This document shows, piece by piece, positions 54,134-64,000 of a stretch of DNA of 64,000 nucleotides. Every line of letters begins with the position of its first letter. The first letter of the stretch is position 1. The position numbers and the translations under genes are program-made. The notes below the pieces were generated by a model. It worked only from the letters and a program-made list of their open reading frames with translations. It did not search any database and was not told the origin of the DNA. This DNA comes from Rothia mucilaginosa (GTDB taxonomy: Bacteria; Actinomycetota; Actinomycetes; Actinomycetales; Micrococcaceae): positions 1 through 64,000 of the forward strand of contig NZ_AP014938.1 in the NCBI RefSeq assembly GCF_001548235.1, read 5' to 3'.

Positions 54134-55204
54134 ATGTCTATTTTTTCCTCTCGTCGCGCCCTTTTTAAGGGTGCGGCAGCACTAACAGTCGCTGGCGCTT
54201 TGGGTGCGCACCACGCCGGCGAGCAGAGCGCCCAGGCTGCCACCTTGGACGTTAAGACCACCCCGCTGACGTTCAAGGTTACTGAGGCGTCATTTGATAT
54301 TAGCGGCTTCAACCTCAGCTACGAGATTACCGGTCTGCAGGCTGTGCTTGATACCGGCCTGTACACCCCGTACATTGAGGCCGGCTACTACACCAAGGAG
54401 AAGGGCTTCAGGCAGTTCTATTTCTTCTCTCTTGAGCCGAAGAAGCGCATCGAGAATGATGTCTACATTAGGCACCACATCATTAATCGTGATATCACCG
54501 GCGGCCCGAATGCAAACTATGGTATTCGTCTGTCTCTTCGTCCGCGCCGTGAGCAGTACACCATTCTGCGCACTCTTGAAGTTCGCCCCACGATTGACAC
54601 TGAGTTCGCGTGGGCACCGTTCATTGTGGACATTGATATGGATGGCGAGTACGCTCCCGATATCTACAGGTCATGTAAAGCGAAGGTTCTGCTACTCGAT
54701 AAGGACCGTTGTTTCCACCCCCAGCGTGCGGTGACCCGCGGCGACCTGATGGATGCTATCTACCGAAGCGCCCGCTCGCCGAAGGTGAAGCTTCCTGCGC
54801 GTTCTCCTTTCCCGGATTTGTCCCCGAAGGATGAGCGTTACGCGGCGTACATTTGGGCGTATCAGAATGGTCTGACTTCCGGCTGGTCTGACGGTAAGAT
54901 GCACCCGGAGGCGGTGGCTAGCCGCGCTACGATGGCTGCGTTCTTCTACCGTTACAAGCATCTTCCCTCCTCTACCGGTACCCGCTGGTACAATCCGACC
55001 ACCCCTGCCGATATGAAGCCTGGTTCCCCGTTCTTCGTGGAGTGCTCGTGGCTGCACTCGTCGGTGAATATTGATACGAGCTATTACTATAAGAGCAAGG
55101 ATTTCCGTCCGACCAAGATTGCTACCCGCGAGGAGCTGGCTCGTGTCCTGTCAATGCTCGACATGCTTGACACCATCCCCAATAGCCCTTATCTCGATGA
55201 TTAG
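54134..55204 (+). CDS. Exported SLH-domain protein, first of the array, 356 aa
   Basis: The N-terminus has a twin-arginine signal, SSRRALFKGAAALTVAGALGA, with likely cleavage after QSAQA. Residues 35-190 are a beta-rich domain with no recognised family. Residues about 195-345 resemble S-layer homology (SLH) modules, including TRGDLMDAIYRSA, SPFPDLSPKDERYAAYIWAYQNGLTSGWSDGKMHPE and SRATMAAFFYRYKH. SLH modules bind secondary cell-wall polymers. It lacks the module set of the following paralogues but shares their C-terminal SLH and the GATGGGA start context. A Tat rather than Sec signal sets it apart. Confidence 0.8.
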   Translation: MSIFSSRRALFKGAAALTVAGALGAHHAGEQSAQAATLDVKTTPLTFKVTEASFDISGFNLSYEITGLQAVLDTGLYTPYIEAGYYTKEKGFRQFYFFSLEPKKRIENDVYIRHHIINRDITGGPNANYGIRLSLRPRREQYTILRTLEVRPTIDTEFAWAPFIVDIDMDGEYAPDIYRSCKAKVLLLDKDRCFHPQRAVTRGDLMDAIYRSARSPKVKLPARSPFPDLSPKDERYAAYIWAYQNGLTSGWSDGKMHPEAVASRATMAAFFYRYKHLPSSTGTRWYNPTTPADMKPGSPFFVECSWLHSSVNIDTSYYYKSKDFRPTKIATREELARVLSMLDMLDTIPNSPYLDD

Positions 55205-55610
55205 GATTTGGCAGGCGCCGTGAACCGGACGGTTGACCCTACACGGTTTAGCGTGGGTTGACTTCTGAGAACAGCAACTGAAGATAGCGGCTATAGAAGG
55301 GGCGGTGAGAGTTTTTCTCTCACCGCCCCTTCTTTGTGGTCTTTTTTTGGGGGGCGGGCTTTGTATAAAACCGGGGGCGTAATTTTCGAATTTTTTGTCT
55401 TATAACTCTTATTGGAATGTTTTTCTCGTGTTTTCATTGAATGTCTAAGACGCGGGTTGGTAGGCTGAAATTGCACTTCAGCATGCCGCCGCTACGGGTC
55501 CTCTACTATGTGGATTCGGTGCGGGTTCGGTGCGATGGACTGTCACTCATTGATCCTCTCAACTTCTTTTCTCATTCGCCCTCTTTCATGCAGAAAATTC
55601 AGATTGGATC
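55205..55610. other. Intergenic region between the first two SLH genes
   Basis: Starts with a terminator (55296-55340), then AT-rich DNA 55360-55440 likely to hold a promoter for the next gene. No gene supported. Confidence 0.45.
55296..55340 (+). terminator. Terminator after the first SLH gene
   Basis: AAGGGGCGGTGAGAG pairs with CTCTCACCGCCCCTT around TTTTT and is followed by CTTTG. Confidence 0.9.
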
Positions 55611-57605
55611 ATGATGTCCTCTTTCTTTACGCCTGTTCGTGGCACGCACCGAAGGGTTGCGGGTGCTTCCTTGGTTTTGGGTTTGTCTCCGCTGCTGGCT
55701 TTGACGCCGGTGGCGGCTCAGCCGGCGCCCGCCTCCCCTGTGAACACGCAGCAGGCAACTACTCAAGAAACACCGGCCCGTCAGGTGCCTCAAGTGCAGG
55801 GTGACAATCCCACCTCTGAACTGGAGAAGGTTGATTTGAAGGTCACGACAGGCCCCCTCAACATTTCTCAGGGCGGTATCATTTCGGTAACGACCTCTCC
55901 GTTGAGCGCTGAATTCCGTCAGAAGTACACGTTCCACGAGCTCGCGTTGGTGGAACGGGGTTCCACGTACGTCCATGCCGGGCATCATAATTATGTTCCC
56001 CTCACTCAGTACGGTGGGATGGTTAGTGACCTCAAGCAGCAGGGTAATGTGCGAGAGAACCCGGATGGTAGCCTCACCTTCACGCTCGTTGTTCCCGCCC
56101 ATGTTGTTGAGGCTCCAGAGGGGACTCTCTTCGATACGGTACTGACGTACTACCCGTCGAATGAGTATGCGCCGGATCCGTTAACGTGGTCGAATCGCCG
56201 GGTAATCCGTACTCCTACCGATGTGGTGCAGGACGCTAAACCTACGAAGACCACCTACCTCTTCAGTTCACCTTCTATCGAGCATCCGGAAGAGGATACA
56301 ACCCTGACGGTTGAGGGTTTCCACATCCTCTCGAAAAGCACCATTCTGGGTCCTGAAGGCCCGGCGGTCCTGACCCTTTTTGAGGTTGATCCGGTGACTG
56401 GGCGGGGTATTGGTTCACCTGTGTTTACTCAGAACCTGAATTACACCAGGTGTGATCAGTACTGTGATACTTTCTTGAACGACCATTTCAGTACGGCTAT
56501 CACGATTCCCGGGGGTACCCTCAAAGCGGGCAGGCAGTACAGGATTGGTTTCTACGGCGGTGGTCTTCCTGACCCGACTTCGGAGGAATACCCTGGTGCG
56601 TGGATGACCGATGTGGCAGATTTCATCCCGGTAGGTACCCCGGAGCAAGATGAAGCTCCCACCAGCATCTACGTCTCAGGAGATAAGGTGAGCCCTTATC
56701 GCGAGAATAATACTTTGAAGGTGACTATTTTGGGTCTGCCGCCGCTGACCAAGGGTTACTACCGTTTCTCCTTGCAGCCGATTGATGATCATGGCCGTCC
56801 GACCGGGCAGAAGTCTTGGGAGAAAGTGATTCCTGCCGGGAACATTCAGAAGGGTCGTACGGAGCAGACGCTTTCTCTCCCTGGCTATGCCCTGAATTTT
56901 GATGTGGCCTATAGGCTCTTTGTGGAGAAGGTAACCCCGAATCAGGGTGATGGTGTCGATTCGGTTGAGCAGATTGCTTCCAAAGACCTGGACTCGGATA
57001 TCAGTCAGGAACGGGAGATGGAGGCTGCCAGGAAGTGGATTGTGAACCGTCAAATTCTACCGGACTACCCCACTGATCACGATTGGGAATCAGTGAATCG
57101 CCGTTCTGTGACGGTGGCGTTGTACCGGTTAGCGGGTGCGCCGCAGGTTGAGCTTCCGGCAGCCAGCCCTTACACGGATATTACGCCGGACGACCCTGAC
57201 TATACCGCTATTATTTGGGCTCGTCAGCGGGGTATTACGTTCGGCTGGGTTGATGGTCGATTCCACCCGAATGAGCCGCTTTCGGATCGTTCCACGGCCG
57301 CGTTCCTCTACAGGTATCAGCGAGCCCGTGGGGAGGTGTCGCCAAGCTTACCAACGTCTCCTTCACTGCCGGACTCTAACCCGAAGAAACAGACGCATTT
57401 CCCGCTTAGCTCTCATTGGCGGCTCTGGATCAGCCCGGAGACTGCTTTTTCACGTGAGTCTAGCTGGGCTATTGAGCAACGTATCTGGGGTTACACTCCT
57501 GATCAAGGTTACCTCTATGAGAACTTTGGTGGCTACAAGATGTCGTACCGTCAGGTGGCTGTGATGCTGTACCGTATGGAGCACGGCGGCAGCCGCCTCA
57601 GGTAA
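55611..57605 (+). CDS. Exported SLH-domain surface protein, 664 aa
   Basis: Starts MMSSFFTPVRGTHRR, then a Sec signal core ending near PVAAQP. After a Pro/Gln/Thr linker come three modules. About 50-200 is a strand-rich domain beginning LNISQGGIISVTTSPLSAEF. About 210-345 is an Ig-like domain with DTTLTVEGFHIL and a C-x-x-x-C pair. About 350-470 is a further beta domain ending AYRLFVEKVTP. Residues 485-664 carry SLH-like units with VTVALYRLAG, DPDYTAIIWARQRGITFGWVDGRFHP, STAAFLYRYQ, and end VMLYRMEHGGSRLR. Likely an exported surface protein held by cell-wall polymer. Ligand unknown. Adhesion is possible but not shown. Confidence 0.82.
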   Translation: MMSSFFTPVRGTHRRVAGASLVLGLSPLLALTPVAAQPAPASPVNTQQATTQETPARQVPQVQGDNPTSELEKVDLKVTTGPLNISQGGIISVTTSPLSAEFRQKYTFHELALVERGSTYVHAGHHNYVPLTQYGGMVSDLKQQGNVRENPDGSLTFTLVVPAHVVEAPEGTLFDTVLTYYPSNEYAPDPLTWSNRRVIRTPTDVVQDAKPTKTTYLFSSPSIEHPEEDTTLTVEGFHILSKSTILGPEGPAVLTLFEVDPVTGRGIGSPVFTQNLNYTRCDQYCDTFLNDHFSTAITIPGGTLKAGRQYRIGFYGGGLPDPTSEEYPGAWMTDVADFIPVGTPEQDEAPTSIYVSGDKVSPYRENNTLKVTILGLPPLTKGYYRFSLQPIDDHGRPTGQKSWEKVIPAGNIQKGRTEQTLSLPGYALNFDVAYRLFVEKVTPNQGDGVDSVEQIASKDLDSDISQEREMEAARKWIVNRQILPDYPTDHDWESVNRRSVTVALYRLAGAPQVELPAASPYTDITPDDPDYTAIIWARQRGITFGWVDGRFHPNEPLSDRSTAAFLYRYQRARGEVSPSLPTSPSLPDSNPKKQTHFPLSSHWRLWISPETAFSRESSWAIEQRIWGYTPDQGYLYENFGGYKMSYRQVAVMLYRMEHGGSRLR

Positions 57606-57773
57606 CGCCCGGTCGTGGTGAGGGGTAACCGATGGGCTGGGATGCTCGACGTAGTTCGGCTTTTCAGCCCGCCGGTGCAACCCTTTGTTTCCCCCTCCCC
57701 GGCGACTTCTCTTGCCTGGCGCCAGGCTTTACGGGGCGTCTTCTCCCCTAGTCTGGCTTTCAGGTTCTATCCG

Positions 57774-57862
57774 CTCAACTTCTTCACTCACTTCATCTAC
57801 TCACTCATTTCAATCACCGTATAAATTTTGTAGATGGGATTATGATGTCTTCATTCTTCGCC
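57774..57862 (+). repeat. Shared upstream/start segment of SLH paralogues, copy 1
   Basis: About 88 bases up to and including the first codons, from CCGCTCAACTTCTTCACTCA through ATAAATTTTGTAGATGGGA and ATGATGTCTTCATTCTTC. Near-identical to 61234-61323, with two or three differences, and partly kept near 63555-63660. Confidence 0.85.
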
Positions 57863-60800
57863 CCACGAGGTGCCCCGCACCATTCTGAAACCCCGCGCCA
57901 CCCGGCGAGCGCACGCGTGCTCAGCCTGTCGCTGCTGCTGGGTTTGAGTCCGCTTGCGGGTATTACTCCCGCTGCGCTGGCTGCGCCTCAAGAAGCACCC
58001 GTGCAGAACGCGCCCGTGCAGCAGAACGAACCCGCTCAGAACAAACCTGCGCAGAATAAACCTGCACAGGGTGATCAGCAGGATGCTTCCCTGCCGACCC
58101 TGCGCGTGTCCAGCGGTTCCCTCGACATTCTTCACGGCGGTACCGTGCACGTGGAGGGTACCGGGCTGAGCCCCGAGTTCTTGGCGCATCACGAACTGCG
58201 TAGCCTCACAATTGCCCCGAAGGGCTCTTCAACCTACGCCAACCCCTACCAGAAAGTCGATCACCGCGGCCTCGTCTTTGACGCCCCGAAACCAGCTGCT
58301 GACGGCAGTTTCAGCGCCGACCTGACGGTTCCGGCGAATAGCCTGCCGGCAAACCTGGAGTACGAGGTCATTCTCACCTACCGCCCCGTAGACGATGCGC
58401 ACCCCTATGCGTGGAACACTGAGGATCGTGTCCGTACGGCGCTGCCGGTGGAGCATAACGTGCCGGAGGGTGTGCTTCCCTCCATCACCTATGATGTTTC
58501 GGCTATTTCTGAGGAGCAGATTGCTTCCGGCCAGCCGGTCGAGGTGACGTTGACGGGTACCGGTTTTCAGGATGTCAGTTCTGTAAAATTCACCCTATCC
58601 GAGCATGATGAGCAAGGAAAGGTCACGAACGATAATGTGGCTTCGCTTGGTGAGCTGAAAGCACCGGATACGGAAGAGAATCAGCGCATTTTCAAGGGCC
58701 TGATTCCGAACGGCTATTTCCAGAAGAAGATCACGATCCCCGCGGGAGTCCTGAAGTCCGGTAAGGGGTATTCCCTGGGTGTTTCCGGTGTAGAAACCCA
58801 CGGGTGGCCTAAGCTGACGCGTAAGTTCCCCTTCGTTCCTGTGGGCAATAACCCCGCACACATGGCGTATCAGAATAATTCGTTCAGGAACACCCTGCCG
58901 AAGGTATCTGTTGCTGCGCAGAATTTTGATCCCGGTCAGGACCGCGTCTATAAGGTGACTATTTCTAATATTTCACCCGAGGTGGACCTGGGGTACTACC
59001 TTGATTCTGTGTCGATTTATAACGCTACTTCTGGTGAGCAGGCACCCTTTGCGAGGAATGATGTAGCGGGCCAATACGATAAGCAGGATGAGCTGGTGAC
59101 CCGCAACGCTGACGGCACTCTGACCGTGGAGGTTGAGTATAAGGTTCACGGTGATTCCTCCTATAGGCCTTCTTCTCGCGGCTCAATGGCTGAAGTGCGT
59201 GCAGTGTTCTCGGACTCTAAGTATTCGTACGGTAGCCATAAGTTCACGGTGAGCACCCAGCTTCCGATGGCGCCTCCTGCCGCTGATGCTGTTGATTGGG
59301 AGAACCCGGCGAATGTTAAGTTGAAGGTCGATTCGGGCACCCTCAATATTTCTCAGGGCGGCACGGTGTCGGTGACCACTTCCCCGTTGAGCGCCGAGTT
59401 CCGTAAGAAGTACGCTTTCTACGAGCTGGCTCTGGTGACGCGCGGGTCGGTGTACGTGTATGAGGAGCACCATAGTTATCCGCCTCTCAACGAGTACGGC
59501 GGAATGCTCAAGGATCTGGAGCATCAGGTGCGGGAGAACCCGGACGGTAGCCTCACCTACACGTTTAAGGTTCCCCCGCAATACCTTGAGGTTGCCAACG
59601 GTACGCTCTTCGATGTGGTGATGTCGTACTACCCGTTGGATGATTTTGAGCCGGAACCTTCGAGTAGGTCGAACCGTTTGTATGCCCGCGCCCATATTGA
59701 TGTGGTTCAGGAAGCGCAGCCGACCCGTGGGACCTACACCTTCAGTCAGTCCGCTATCGATAACCCGTGGAAGGATACGACGCTGCGAGTTGAGGGACGC
59801 CATGTCCTCTCCCAGGCTAGTGAACTGATTTCTAATGAGTCGCCGGTCGTCGCTATCTATGAGGCTGACCCTGCAACGGGAAAGATGGTGGGTCAGCCCG
59901 TGTTCACTCAGCAGGTGGACTACACGTACTCCGGGGTTAACTCCAGGTGGTTCCGCAATAACTATTTCAGCACGGAGCTGAAGATTCCTGCGGGTACGTT
60001 GAAGCCGGGCAAGCTCTACTTTATTGGTATGTATGGGGACGGGTTGCCTTACCCCGGCATGGAAGATTCTCCGGGCTCTATGCTGAATGATGTTGCTGAG
60101 TTCCTTCCGGTGCGTTCCCCCAATCAGGAAACCGCGCATCCTGCGTTGCACCTTGGGTCGGTGAGACTGAACCCGTACGCAAAGACGAACTCGTTTACGG
60201 TGCGCGCTACCGAGCTCTATGCACCGGGTGAAGGATCGTACCGCCTCTCGGTGCAGCACGTTGATGAGCAGGGGCGTTTGACCGGTCAGCCGGTGTTCCA
60301 GCGGGCGATCCCCGCTGAGCGCATCAAGGATGGCAGGGTGGAGCTGAATCTGACGATTGATCAGCAGCTGAGCTATTCGGGTGCGTATCGCCTGGTTTTG
60401 GAGAAGGTCACCCCCGGTAAGGATGGTGCCGCGGAGTCGGTGGAGCAGCTTGACGTCGAGGATATTCCTCTGAAGCTGACGCGTGAGGATGAGTTGCAGG
60501 CGGCTGAACGCTGGTTTGATGAGCGTCAGATTCTGCCTGGTCCTTCGCCGCAGTCCTGGCATAACGATATGACGCGCCGCGATGTGACGGTGGCGCTGTA
60601 CCGCCTGGCGGGTTCCCCGAAGGTTGAGCTGCCTGCAACCAGTCCTTACGCGGATGTGGCACCGAGCGACCCGGACTACGCCGCGTACATTTGGGCTCGT
60701 CAGAAGGGCATTACCTTCGGTTGGGTGGATGGCAAGTTCCACCCGGATGTGCACCTTTCGACCCCGTCGACGGTGGCGTTCCTGTACAGGTACCAGAAGG

Positions 60801-61087
60801 CGATGGGTAAGGTCACGCCGAAGGCGCCGACCTCTCCCTCATTGCCACGTAGCTCGTCTGTGCCGGGCACCCAGGATGCGCCCCGGAGTACTAGCGGCTG
60901 GGAGCATAAGGCTCTTAAGGGTACCGCTTTCTGGCGTGAGGCTCAGTGGGCTGTTGATTACCGCGTGTGGGGTTACCGCGTTGACGGAGAATACCCTTAT
61001 GAGGGTTTTGATAATTCTTCCATTTCCTCTGGTGATTTTGCGTTGATGCTGTACCGTATGGAGCACGGCGGTAGCCACCTCAGGTAA
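57842..61087 (+). CDS. Exported SLH-domain surface protein, 1081 aa
   Basis: Largest member. Sec signal (hydrophobic core about 26-43, Ala-rich end), Gln/Pro/Asn linker with QNKPAQ repeats, then an extra N-terminal half (about 80-480). That half begins LRVSSGSLDILHGGTVHVEG, a variant of the SGTLNISQGGTVSV module. From about 490 it follows the module order of its neighbours: SGTLNISQGGTVSVTTSPL, an Ig-like DTTLRVEGRHVL domain, a YRLSVQHVDEQGRLTGQ domain and three SLH-like units from about 890. It ends in the same VMLYRMEHGGSHLR. The Cys pair of the neighbouring Ig-like domain is absent. Start at 57842 or 57845, with GATGGGA upstream. Confidence 0.82.
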   Translation: MMSSFFAPRGAPHHSETPRHPASARVLSLSLLLGLSPLAGITPAALAAPQEAPVQNAPVQQNEPAQNKPAQNKPAQGDQQDASLPTLRVSSGSLDILHGGTVHVEGTGLSPEFLAHHELRSLTIAPKGSSTYANPYQKVDHRGLVFDAPKPAADGSFSADLTVPANSLPANLEYEVILTYRPVDDAHPYAWNTEDRVRTALPVEHNVPEGVLPSITYDVSAISEEQIASGQPVEVTLTGTGFQDVSSVKFTLSEHDEQGKVTNDNVASLGELKAPDTEENQRIFKGLIPNGYFQKKITIPAGVLKSGKGYSLGVSGVETHGWPKLTRKFPFVPVGNNPAHMAYQNNSFRNTLPKVSVAAQNFDPGQDRVYKVTISNISPEVDLGYYLDSVSIYNATSGEQAPFARNDVAGQYDKQDELVTRNADGTLTVEVEYKVHGDSSYRPSSRGSMAEVRAVFSDSKYSYGSHKFTVSTQLPMAPPAADAVDWENPANVKLKVDSGTLNISQGGTVSVTTSPLSAEFRKKYAFYELALVTRGSVYVYEEHHSYPPLNEYGGMLKDLEHQVRENPDGSLTYTFKVPPQYLEVANGTLFDVVMSYYPLDDFEPEPSSRSNRLYARAHIDVVQEAQPTRGTYTFSQSAIDNPWKDTTLRVEGRHVLSQASELISNESPVVAIYEADPATGKMVGQPVFTQQVDYTYSGVNSRWFRNNYFSTELKIPAGTLKPGKLYFIGMYGDGLPYPGMEDSPGSMLNDVAEFLPVRSPNQETAHPALHLGSVRLNPYAKTNSFTVRATELYAPGEGSYRLSVQHVDEQGRLTGQPVFQRAIPAERIKDGRVELNLTIDQQLSYSGAYRLVLEKVTPGKDGAAESVEQLDVEDIPLKLTREDELQAAERWFDERQILPGPSPQSWHNDMTRRDVTVALYRLAGSPKVELPATSPYADVAPSDPDYAAYIWARQKGITFGWVDGKFHPDVHLSTPSTVAFLYRYQKAMGKVTPKAPTSPSLPRSSSVPGTQDAPRSTSGWEHKALKGTAFWREAQWAVDYRVWGYRVDGEYPYEGFDNSSISSGDFALMLYRMEHGGSHLR

Positions 61088-61103
61088 CGCCCGGTCGTGG
61101 TGA

Positions 61104-61112
61104 GGGGGGGGG
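61104..61112 (+). repeat. Run of nine G
   Basis: Just after the stop of the 1081-aa gene, in sequence otherwise copied from 57606-57650 where the run is four G. About 190 bases before the next SLH gene. Confidence 0.8.
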
Positions 61113-61233
61113 ACCGGTGGGCTGGAATGTTCGGCATAGTTCGACTTTTCAGCCCGCCGGTACCGCCCCTCCTATTCGTTTCTCCAGAACGCTTCTTCTC
61201 CCCTGTTGAGGGTTTTCTTTTCACGCTTTATCC

Positions 61234-61323
61234 GCTCAACTTTTTCACTCACTTCATCTACTCACTCATTCCAATCACCGTATAAATTTTGTAGATGGGA
61301 TTATGATGTCTTCATTCTTCACA
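61234..61323 (+). repeat. Shared upstream/start segment of SLH paralogues, copy 2
   Basis: Near-identical to 57774-57862 including TATAAATTTTGTAGATGGGA and the first codons. It probably carries promoter and translation signals common to the array. Confidence 0.85.
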
Positions 61324-63378
61324 CCACGAGGCGCCCCGCGCCACCCGGCGAGCGCCCGCGCGCTCAGCCTATCGTTGCTGCTGGGTTTGAGCCCGCTTGC
61401 CGGTATTACTCCGGCGGCGCTTGCAACACCGACCCAGGCAGCACCCGCGCAGGCAGAACCGGAACAGGCAACCCCCGCGCAGGCAGAACCGGAACAGGCA
61501 ACCCCCGCCTCCCCTACCCTGTTGACCCCTCCCACCCCTGCGGAGGATAAGAAACCTGACAACCCGGTTGGCATGAAGCTCACCTCGGGCACCCTCAATA
61601 TTTCTGAGGGCGGCACTGTCTCTGTGACCACCGCGCCGCTAAGTGCCGAGTTCCGCGCGAAGTACACGTTCTTTGAGTTCGGCATTGTGGAGCGCGGTCA
61701 GAATTACCTTTGGTCACGTTATGGCGATCGCCTTCCTGAGGCGCAGTACGGCAGCAAGGTTGCCGACCTCCGTGCTGAGGGTAAGGCCCACGATAATCCT
61801 GATGGGAGCGTCACGTTCACTCTTGATATCCCGAAGCAGTGGATGATGGTTCCGGAGGGTACCCTCTTCGATGTGGTGCTGACTTACTACCCGTCCAATC
61901 AGTCGGAGCCGGACCCCTATTCTCCGTATGAAGATCCTCGTAGCACGGCGCGAATTCCTTTGCCCACGGTGCGCGACCCTGAGCCTAATCAGCCGACGTA
62001 CCGCTACAGCATTTCTGCGATTGATAAGCCGTGGCAGGATACAACTCTGACGGTTGAGGGTTACCATATTCTCCACCCGAATATCGTGGGCGGGTACGAC
62101 GGCCAAGCGTACGTTACTCTGTATGAGGCAGACCCGGCTACGGGAAAGATTATGGGACGCCCTGTTTTCTCTCACGTGGTTCCGATGACAGGCGACTGCT
62201 GGAATTACTGTATCGGGTTCCGTAATAACTACTTCGCCACGAAGATGACAATTCCGGCGGGTACGTTGAAGCCGGGCAGGCTCTATGTGATTGGTATCTA
62301 CGGTTCTAATCTTCCTCACCCGGGCGAGGAAGACTATAACGGCAGCTTGCTGACCAGTGTTGCGCAGTTCCTTCCGGTGCGGTCTGGGCAACCGAGCGAT
62401 AACCAGCCGAATCCTGACCAACAGTTGGCGCGTCCGGACTTGTACATTCCGTATAAGCGCGTCAACCCGTATCAGGAGATGAATACTCTCACCGCGCGCG
62501 TCTCTAATCTTCCGAAACTTACCGAGGGCTATTACCGTTTCTCGGTTCAGGCGACGGATATTTTTGGCGAGCCGACCGGCGAGAAGGCTTTGGAGCAGAT
62601 TATCCCTGCTGAGCGCATCCACAATAGTGCCGCTGAGGAGACATTGAATGTCCCCGGTAGTACGCTGAATTATGAGGGGTCTTACAGGGTTGTTCTGGAG
62701 AAGGTGACCCCCGGCAAGGATGGCGCCGCAGATGCGGTCGAGCCGGTGGCTTCTGAGAATCTTGACCTCTTGGCGAATACTACCGAGGAGCAGAAGGCGG
62801 CTGTTGAGTGGGTTAAGCAGCAGGCTCTTCTGGACGAGAGTAAGACCGTTTTGAGTCGCCGCGACGTCACGGTGGCGTTATACCGCTTGGCGGGTTCCCC
62901 GAAGGTTGAGCTGCCTGCAACCAGTCCTTACGCGGATGTGGCACCAAGCAACCCGGACTACACTGCGTACATTTGGGCTCGTCAGAAGGGCATTACCTTC
63001 GGCTGGGCGGATGGCAAGTTCCACCCAGAGGCGAAACTTTCGACGCGTTCTACGTTGGCGTTCCTGTACAGGTACCAGCGGATGGTCGCGCCGGCTCCTG
63101 TGCCGGAGTCGAGCAGTTTACCGTCTTTGTCTGTGCCTAAGAATAGTAGCGTGCCGGATGATTCTCCCATCCGGGTTTCGCGCTCGCATTGGTCCGATTA
63201 TGAGCGTACAGATACTGCGTTCTGGAGGGAATCGCTGTGGGCTACTCAGCAGTTCATCTGGGGTTATAAGGATTATTCTCGCCGCTACGCTGAGGATTTC
63301 AGTTTGGATTCTGTTTCTTCTTCGGAGTTGGCGGTCATGCTGTACCGCATGGAGCACGGCGGCAGCCGCCTCAAGTAG
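61303..63378 (+). CDS. Exported SLH-domain surface protein, 691 aa
   Basis: Sec signal near-identical to that of the previous gene (SLSLLLGLSPLAGITPAAL). The linker holds a perfect 30-bp tandem duplication (61444-61503) coding for PAQAEPEQAT twice. Modules follow in order: SGTLNISEGGTVSVTTAPL (about 90), Ig-like with DTTLTVEGYHIL and a Cys pair CWNYC, YYRFSVQATDIFGEPTGE, and AYRVVLEKVTP-like end. SLH-like units at about 520-691 match the 1081-aa protein nearly word for word over SPKVELPATSPYADVAPS. It ends VMLYRMEHGGSRLK. Function as for its paralogues. Confidence 0.82.
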   Translation: MMSSFFTPRGAPRHPASARALSLSLLLGLSPLAGITPAALATPTQAAPAQAEPEQATPAQAEPEQATPASPTLLTPPTPAEDKKPDNPVGMKLTSGTLNISEGGTVSVTTAPLSAEFRAKYTFFEFGIVERGQNYLWSRYGDRLPEAQYGSKVADLRAEGKAHDNPDGSVTFTLDIPKQWMMVPEGTLFDVVLTYYPSNQSEPDPYSPYEDPRSTARIPLPTVRDPEPNQPTYRYSISAIDKPWQDTTLTVEGYHILHPNIVGGYDGQAYVTLYEADPATGKIMGRPVFSHVVPMTGDCWNYCIGFRNNYFATKMTIPAGTLKPGRLYVIGIYGSNLPHPGEEDYNGSLLTSVAQFLPVRSGQPSDNQPNPDQQLARPDLYIPYKRVNPYQEMNTLTARVSNLPKLTEGYYRFSVQATDIFGEPTGEKALEQIIPAERIHNSAAEETLNVPGSTLNYEGSYRVVLEKVTPGKDGAADAVEPVASENLDLLANTTEEQKAAVEWVKQQALLDESKTVLSRRDVTVALYRLAGSPKVELPATSPYADVAPSNPDYTAYIWARQKGITFGWADGKFHPEAKLSTRSTLAFLYRYQRMVAPAPVPESSSLPSLSVPKNSSVPDDSPIRVSRSHWSDYERTDTAFWRESLWATQQFIWGYKDYSRRYAEDFSLDSVSSSELAVMLYRMEHGGSRLK

Positions 63379-63641
63379 TTTCGGTGCGTGAAGTGGCTAG
63401 TGGGCTGTGTTCTTCGAGTCGTTGTGCCTGCAGGCTCAACAGCTAGACCAGTCCCGCCCCTAGCATCCTTTACAGGTACCGGTGAGAGGAATCGGGAGCG
63501 TTACCCGATGGGAATCTTCCCGTGAGTAGCGCCCCGGTTTCCCGGCCCTTGATTTACTCAACCTTTTTCACTCGCTTCACCTATTCACGCTTCACCTGTT
63601 CATTCGCTTCACTCACCGTACAGTTTTTTGTAGATGGGATA
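63379..63641. other. Intergenic region before the fifth SLH gene
   Basis: The right part (63555-63641) is a diverged version of the shared upstream segment, with a duplicated pyrimidine-rich CTTCACTC/CTTCACCT stretch. The left part has no counterpart in the other gaps. Confidence 0.5.
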
Positions 63642-64000
63642 ATGATGTCTTCATTCTTCACACCACGAGGCGCCCGGTGCCGCTCAACTGCGCCGAGCCA
63701 CCCGGCGAGCGCCCGTGCGCTCAGCCTGTCACTGCTGCTGGGTTTGAGCCCGCTTGCCGGTGTTACTCCGGCGGCACTCGCAGCACCGGCTCAGGCGGCA
63801 CCTGACCAGCAGGCGCAGCCAGCACAGGTAGCCCCCGCCTCCCCCGCCGCAGCTCAAGAAGATGCTGACGAATCCACGTCTTCGCTTCCGGAGGCGGATG
63901 ATTCTCGCTATCCTGAAGTGGATGATCATCGCCATCCTGAAATGGAAGGGTTTAAAGTCTCTCCTGAGACTCTCAACATTTCTCGAGGCGGCACCGTAAC
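63642..64000 (+). CDS. Exported SLH-array protein, N-terminal part, cut by the window end
   Basis: Open through the last base. It starts MMSSFFTPRGARCRS, with the same Sec signal as its neighbours (SLSLLLGLSPLAGVTPAAL), an Ala/Gln/Pro linker, an acidic Asp/Glu/His segment with DDSRYPEVDDHRHPEMEG, and the beginning of the first module, SPETLNISRGGTV. The SLH part is expected beyond the window. Preceded by TTTTTTGTAGATGGGATA. Confidence 0.8.
   Translation, partial: MMSSFFTPRGARCRSTAPSHPASARALSLSLLLGLSPLAGVTPAALAAPAQAAPDQQAQPAQVAPASPAAAQEDADESTSSLPEADDSRYPEVDDHRHPEMEGFKVSPETLNISRGGTV

Follow-up and report, generated by a model that had tools for sequence, protein, structure and literature searches.

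A tandem array of SLH-type surface-protein genes in Rothia mucilaginosa with signs of recombination at shared blocks

Surface-protein genes that stand in tandem and share their ends raise the question of whether the copies have simply diverged since duplication, have exchanged parts, or serve a system of surface variation. We addressed this question for an array in Rothia mucilaginosa that begins in the window, the 64,000-nucleotide stretch analysed here, which forms the start of a single-contig genome of 2.29 Mb. An earlier note on this DNA had described five consecutive plus-strand genes; all five ORFs are present, the fifth cut by the window end, and the array exceeds what the window shows, with 13 SLH-type genes on one strand at 54134-81557. 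The genes of the window are the following.

54134..55204, plus strand: g1, ORF of 356 aa at the upstream edge of the array; Pfam SLH 37.9 bits; ortholog in the sister genome G014 at 87.0% amino acid identity
55611..57605, plus strand: g2, ORF for a 664-aa MMSSFF-type surface protein; SLH 31.3 bits; G014 ortholog at 93.7% nucleotide identity
57842..61087, plus strand: g3, ORF for a 1081-aa MMSSFF-type protein whose additional N-terminal half reaches to about aa 485
61303..63378, plus strand: g4, ORF for a 691-aa MMSSFF-type protein with three predicted beta-sandwich domains and SLH-like helices
63642..64000 in the window, continuing to genome position 65714, plus strand: g5, ORF start of a 690-aa MMSSFF-type protein

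Beyond g5 lie eight further plus-strand genes with SLH-like ends, reaching to 81557 (h1 to h7 and one between h3 and h4). As the earlier note stated, four genes of the window begin with MMSSFF and carry LNIS.GG-type modules, of which g3 has two. The note had also given g3 the VMLYR-type ending; its actual ending is LMLYRMEHGGSHLR. The first gene, g1, has a Tat-like N-terminus (by eye) and an SLH C-terminus, and belongs to the family through the latter only. Pairwise DNA identity among g2-g5 is 58-62%, and the second half of g3 is 50-52% identical to g2, g4 and g5 at the amino acid level. The MMSSFF genes, at about 60% nucleotide identity, are old paralogs.

Named database relatives of the array proteins are mostly from Rothia mucilaginosa. 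Some public records name homologs of g3-g5 “superoxide dismutase” or “siroheme synthase”; the window's genes gave no Pfam or NCBIfam match to such domains, and these names are probably propagated misannotation. The g5 frame is open upstream of its MMSSFF start (63522-63642), and many homologs are listed at 742-766 aa as against about 670-690 aa; in the longer listings the start was probably called too early.

The layout of the MMSSFF proteins was read from an AlphaFold2 model of g4 (mean pLDDT 68.2, pTM 0.46, with the last SLH part poorly predicted). It comprises a hydrophobic leader, a low-complexity linker, three predicted beta-sandwich domains (about aa 88-225, 228-360 and 378-490) and an SLH-like region, whose helices are placed at 493-529, 553-595 and 639-685, with pLDDT below 50 at 599-640 and 650-668. 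Structure matches are to generic Ig/Fn3-type folds. Hydrophobic N-termini can be seen by eye on each of g2-g5.

Pfam SLH scores exceed the cut-off of 20.8 bits in four array genes, g1 (37.9), g2 (31.3), h2 and h7, whereas g3 (15.6) and g4 (14.6) fall below it; the remainder were assigned by similarity to those four. A profile built from 41 relatives matched one solved SLH structure (E 0.0039), over residues 524-571 only, and 30 of the 41 aligned relatives matched SLH at E 0.1 or better. The arginine motif of SLH domains matters for binding. By eye, this motif (TRRD or similar) is found in SLH1 of g2-g5 and is absent from SLH2 and SLH3. Elsewhere in the genome, a tandem of three ORF frames, each about 1400 aa long, lies at 847397-860163 and contains SLH repeats with arginine-containing motifs. 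A search for csaB, suggested by the earlier note, gave one match to the pyruvyl-transferase family PF04230 (78.5 bits, in a 575-aa ORF), but this family is wider than CsaB and was also found in 8 of 14 control genomes. Since the genome has this one PF04230 gene, anchoring of the array proteins through SLH on a pyruvylated polymer is plausible.

Three kinds of block are shared closely between neighbouring genes of the array.

57758..57882, plus strand: 5' shared block of g3 (upstream region, start and leader codons), 93% over 125 nt with 61219-61343
61219..61343, plus strand: 5' shared block of g4, 93% over 125 nt with 57758-57882
57562..57625, plus strand: shared gene-end block of g2, 97% over 64 nt with 61044-61107
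61044..61107, plus strand: shared gene-end block of g3, 97% over 64 nt with 57562-57625
60565..60796, plus strand: SLH1-2 block of g3, 89% with 62847-63078
62847..63078, plus strand: SLH1-2 block of g4 (about aa 515-592), 89% with 60565-60796

The near-identity around the starts, put at about 88 bases in the earlier note, is real, but its size was understated, as the 125-nt block shows. Near-identity after the stops, also claimed there, does not extend over the whole stretch: 57612-57683 and 61097-61168 are 79% identical over 72 nt. The SLH1-2 block is strongly conserved across all four paralogs. In this genome, g3, g4 and g5 are 53-60% identical to one another in the bodies but reach 82-95% in the leader and 83-91% in the SLH2 block; the same comparison within the sister genome G014 gives 83-85% for the leader and 77-87% for the SLH2 block.

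Matching stretches between paralogs were assessed by a run test on 536 polymorphic third codon positions in 32 paralog pairs, with 2000 permutations. Between g3 and g4 of this genome, 18 polymorphic third positions match in a run at aa 527-547, which was reached in 0 of 2000 permutations; the same value was obtained for the leader of g4 in this genome against g5 of G014. Four further pairs gave 6 to 22 of 2000, and the other 26 of the 32 gave 72 or more. At fourfold sites of the SLH2 region, g4 of this genome matches g3 at 26 of 30 sites versus 20 of 29 for its own G014 ortholog. By these matches, the genes g3 and g4 have a converted SLH stretch in common within this genome. The roughly 40 nt preceding the g4 start are likewise of g3 type in this genome and of g5 type in G014.

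To place the array in the genus, we queried 35 genomes with g4. Matches at E 0.001 or better were obtained in 28, mostly via the SLH region, and full-length matches at 50% identity or more only in the window's genome and G014. The latter is collinear, with orthologs of each of g1-g5 (88.3% over 10.5 kb), and differs in gene number, having an extra gene, g6, after g5 and no h3. The junction of the g6 gain or loss lies in the shared gene end of about 40 nt, in the g5 version of the block. In a further genome, G013, there is nothing between the counterparts of g1 and h1. Nucleotide identity to the G014 orthologs is 93.7% in g2, 91.3% in g3, 88.7% in g4 and 83.9% in g5, with ranges in 150-nt windows of 90-98%, 86-98%, 80-96% and 75-94%, respectively. 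Such distances fit the high divergence within R. mucilaginosa, for which one study gives an ANI of about 93-95% (PMC9600527). The earlier note had proposed comparing strains for gene number and mosaic breakpoints: gene number does differ, but g2-g5 and their one-to-one G014 orthologs show no sharp identity breaks and no tail swap in this DNA-level comparison, which covers two genomes.

Exchange becomes visible in the wider set of homologs. We took the best 120 of 958 matches to g4, of 952 to g3 and of 736 to g5 (g2 was not a query), 354 proteins altogether, and painting in 50-aa windows identified mixed proteins among them. For a body-versus-tail test, 14 of the 354 were set aside for want of an anchor motif or a complete tail, and 62 with identical body and tail were merged, leaving 278 distinct homologs. 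Body and tail agree in 231 of these, while 47 carry a tail from another gene. In the swapped proteins, the body is 77-99% identical to its own gene and the tail 73-100% to the other gene, compared with 39-49% to the tail type of its own gene. Bodies of g4 type carry tails of g5 (24), g6 (3) and g3 (3), bodies of g5 type carry tails of g4 (8), g6 (7) and g3 (1), and one g6 body has a g5 tail.

For 43 of the 47, the junction interval lies within aa 500-600, in or beside the SLH1-2 block; the test favours junctions between its two scored parts, but those in the second half of the body are also detectable and only 4 were found. Interval counting gives 18 distinct junctions, an indicative figure, as the labels rest on two reference genomes. 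On the tree of tails, the body label changes 24 times, compared with a floor of 4 and with 104-126 changes in 20 shuffles. Fusions of the g3 N-terminal half to a g4 body occur in 29 of 123 distinct long homologs and fall into two junction classes. Mosaic proteins thus occur among natural homologs, and the SLH1-2 block is where most of their junctions lie.

Within classes, SLH1-2 is 90-95% identical, and the median for the bodies is 88-94%. In g3 and g5, no part varies more than the tail (median 85% and 79%); in g4, with the tail at 89%, tail and body are about equal. “Conserved ends with variable middles”, as the earlier note had it, applies to the leader and the last dozen codons, which together with the SLH1-2 block make up the conserved parts. 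The tail (SLH2 to gene end) varies at least as much as the body and is the piece swapped in the 47 proteins.

Recombination among the g2-g5 paralogs is well supported by these sequence comparisons. The proposal of duplication and recombination is borne out by the database mosaics, the g3/g4 conversion tract and the gene-number difference with G014; the locus does not present the same genes with uniform divergence and no breakpoints, as both breakpoints and gene-number differences are present. We consider it quite likely that the array is a set of tandem SLH surface-protein genes whose diversity arose by ordinary homologous recombination at the blocks they share. Homologous recombination is the simplest mechanism, since the junctions fall at the shared blocks, whose similarity suffices for it. 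Exchange of the RecA type would act at the leader, SLH1-2 and gene-end blocks. The DNA exchanged would come either from the same chromosome, by conversion or unequal crossing-over, or from other strains, and the parts reassorted would be the exposed body, the additional half of g3 and the C-terminal tail. A ComEC-type gene is present in the genome; such genes are common. From what is known of the family, the beta-sandwich bodies would face outward, with the SLH part holding the protein on a pyruvylated wall polymer. The benefit probably lies in making adhesion or recognition surfaces differ between strains rather than in a programmed switch.

Of the other explanations, the strongest, though an unlikely one, is a contingency locus in which the array changes rapidly within a lineage or host, by RecA conversion or a switch, and yields antigenic or phase variation under pressure from the immune system or from phages. 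Shared blocks, mosaics and gene-number change would fit such a locus, and so would dN/dS, which for orthologs against G014 is 0.17-0.41 in g1-g5, as opposed to 0.05-0.11 in four flanking genes; h1, h4 and h7 lie at 0.13-0.21 and two neighbouring lipoprotein-like genes at 0.16 and 0.24. A parallel exists in Clostridioides difficile, whose S-layer cassette is described as hypervariable, with a citation for its switching by recombination, and whose SlpA probably serves as a phage receptor (PMC8809339). Against this explanation, g2-g5 each have, as read from sequence only, their own start and hydrophobic leader, and are therefore not headless cassettes; orthologs retain their identity between the two genomes; and dN/dS stays below 1, with the within-class bodies as similar as given above. 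The dN/dS pattern of the array is relaxed or mildly diversified and not positive overall. Promoter-like sites at the array say little, with 2 found versus 4.7 expected, no more than chance. Antigenic or phase variation may be conjectured here, but the earlier note's “surface-variation locus” in that sense sits poorly with collinear g2-g5 lacking sharp breaks and with their dN/dS.

It is far less probable that the mosaics are mostly artefacts of metagenome assembly or gene calling, joined at the conserved SLH block, in an array that diverges vertically. The mosaic evidence rests on proteins, many of them from assemblies, the junctions fall where assemblers would join paralogs, and 29 of the 47 swapped proteins are each represented by one contig below 50 kb, including P0311, whose tail is 100% identical to that of g3. 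The other 18, however, represent at least two contigs or a contig of at least 50 kb, up to 1.19 Mb (P0085); this protects only roughly against assembly chimeras, as the matches are 90%-identity clusters whose contig counts may include unswapped members. P0102 combines a g4 body with a g5 tail by painting and comes from records named R. mucilaginosa, with no MAG label and contigs to 271 kb. Moreover, the g3/g4 tract and the changed g4 5' region occur in single-contig genomes. A history with no recombination since duplication, in which function (leader, SLH fold) kept the blocks and the anomalous tails belong to native paralogs not yet sampled, is barely credible: SLH1-2 is indeed strongly conserved in the four paralogs and the labels come from two reference genomes, but bodies mostly above 90% within a class carry tails below 50% to that class's tail, which vertical descent cannot give unless the proteins are artefacts, and the g3/g4 match holds at third codon positions and the 5' match in non-coding sequence.

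Read as a recombining family, the array resembles variable surface-protein gene families of other bacteria, of which it appears to be a new example. A partial open-literature search, with subscription papers mostly outside its scope, found no paper on it. In Campylobacter fetus, the sap homologs are reportedly silent. PMC3887049 describes several surface-layer protein genes at that one locus, with recombinational exchange, and one gene predominantly transcribed, whereas each of the Rothia genes g2-g5 has its own start and leader, a layout known from sequence alone. The Rothia array also departs from sap in its SLH-like anchor and, as its particular twist, in having most of its exchange points within the anchor region. 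Mosaicism between strains, in a surface protein anchored to the wall, is also a feature of the slpA cassette of C. difficile (PMC8809339); there, a five-gene cassette with hybrids is involved, while in Rothia the swaps occur inside the genes of a paralog array. The C. difficile anchor is CWB2 (PMC8056022), in contrast to the SLH-like anchor of Rothia. With the CsaB systems, whose SLH proteins sit on a pyruvylated wall polymer (PMC6801904 and PMC8056022), the array shares a C-terminal SLH-like module and a pyruvyl-transferase family gene. One difference is that SLH2 and SLH3 of g2-g5, by eye, lack the arginine motif seen in the three large SLH proteins at 847397-860163.

Other loci of this genome bear separate mention. 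Beside the array, at 83338-90863, lies a second tandem family of short proteins with Tat-lipoprotein-like N-termini (by eye), whose number differs in G014. At 101379-109416, ORFs resembling a helicase-type Cas gene accompany a repeat tract, a region that looks by eye to be CRISPR-like, as we presume. Host ABO genotype has been associated with the absence of an R. mucilaginosa region holding 3-isopropylmalate dehydrogenase (PMC12979206); the sole Iso_dh match in this genome is at 1839688, not near the array.

R. mucilaginosa is common in the mouth; according to the same report (PMC12979206), no species was more abundant in a large survey of saliva. We tentatively propose, as a possibility more doubtful than the recombination itself, that the species maintains a combinatorial pool of surface proteins spread over its population. 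Exposed bodies, an N-terminal half that may or may not be present, and anchor tails would be shuffled at conserved blocks, with phages, antibodies or partner bacteria of the mouth as the selective agents, and the swapped tail, lacking the usual SLH arginine motif, would have acquired a new role. In practice, gene-content or marker studies at the array may confuse paralogs. A locus that reassorts surface proteins between strains would be a natural place to seek determinants of phage sensitivity, partner binding and strain turnover.
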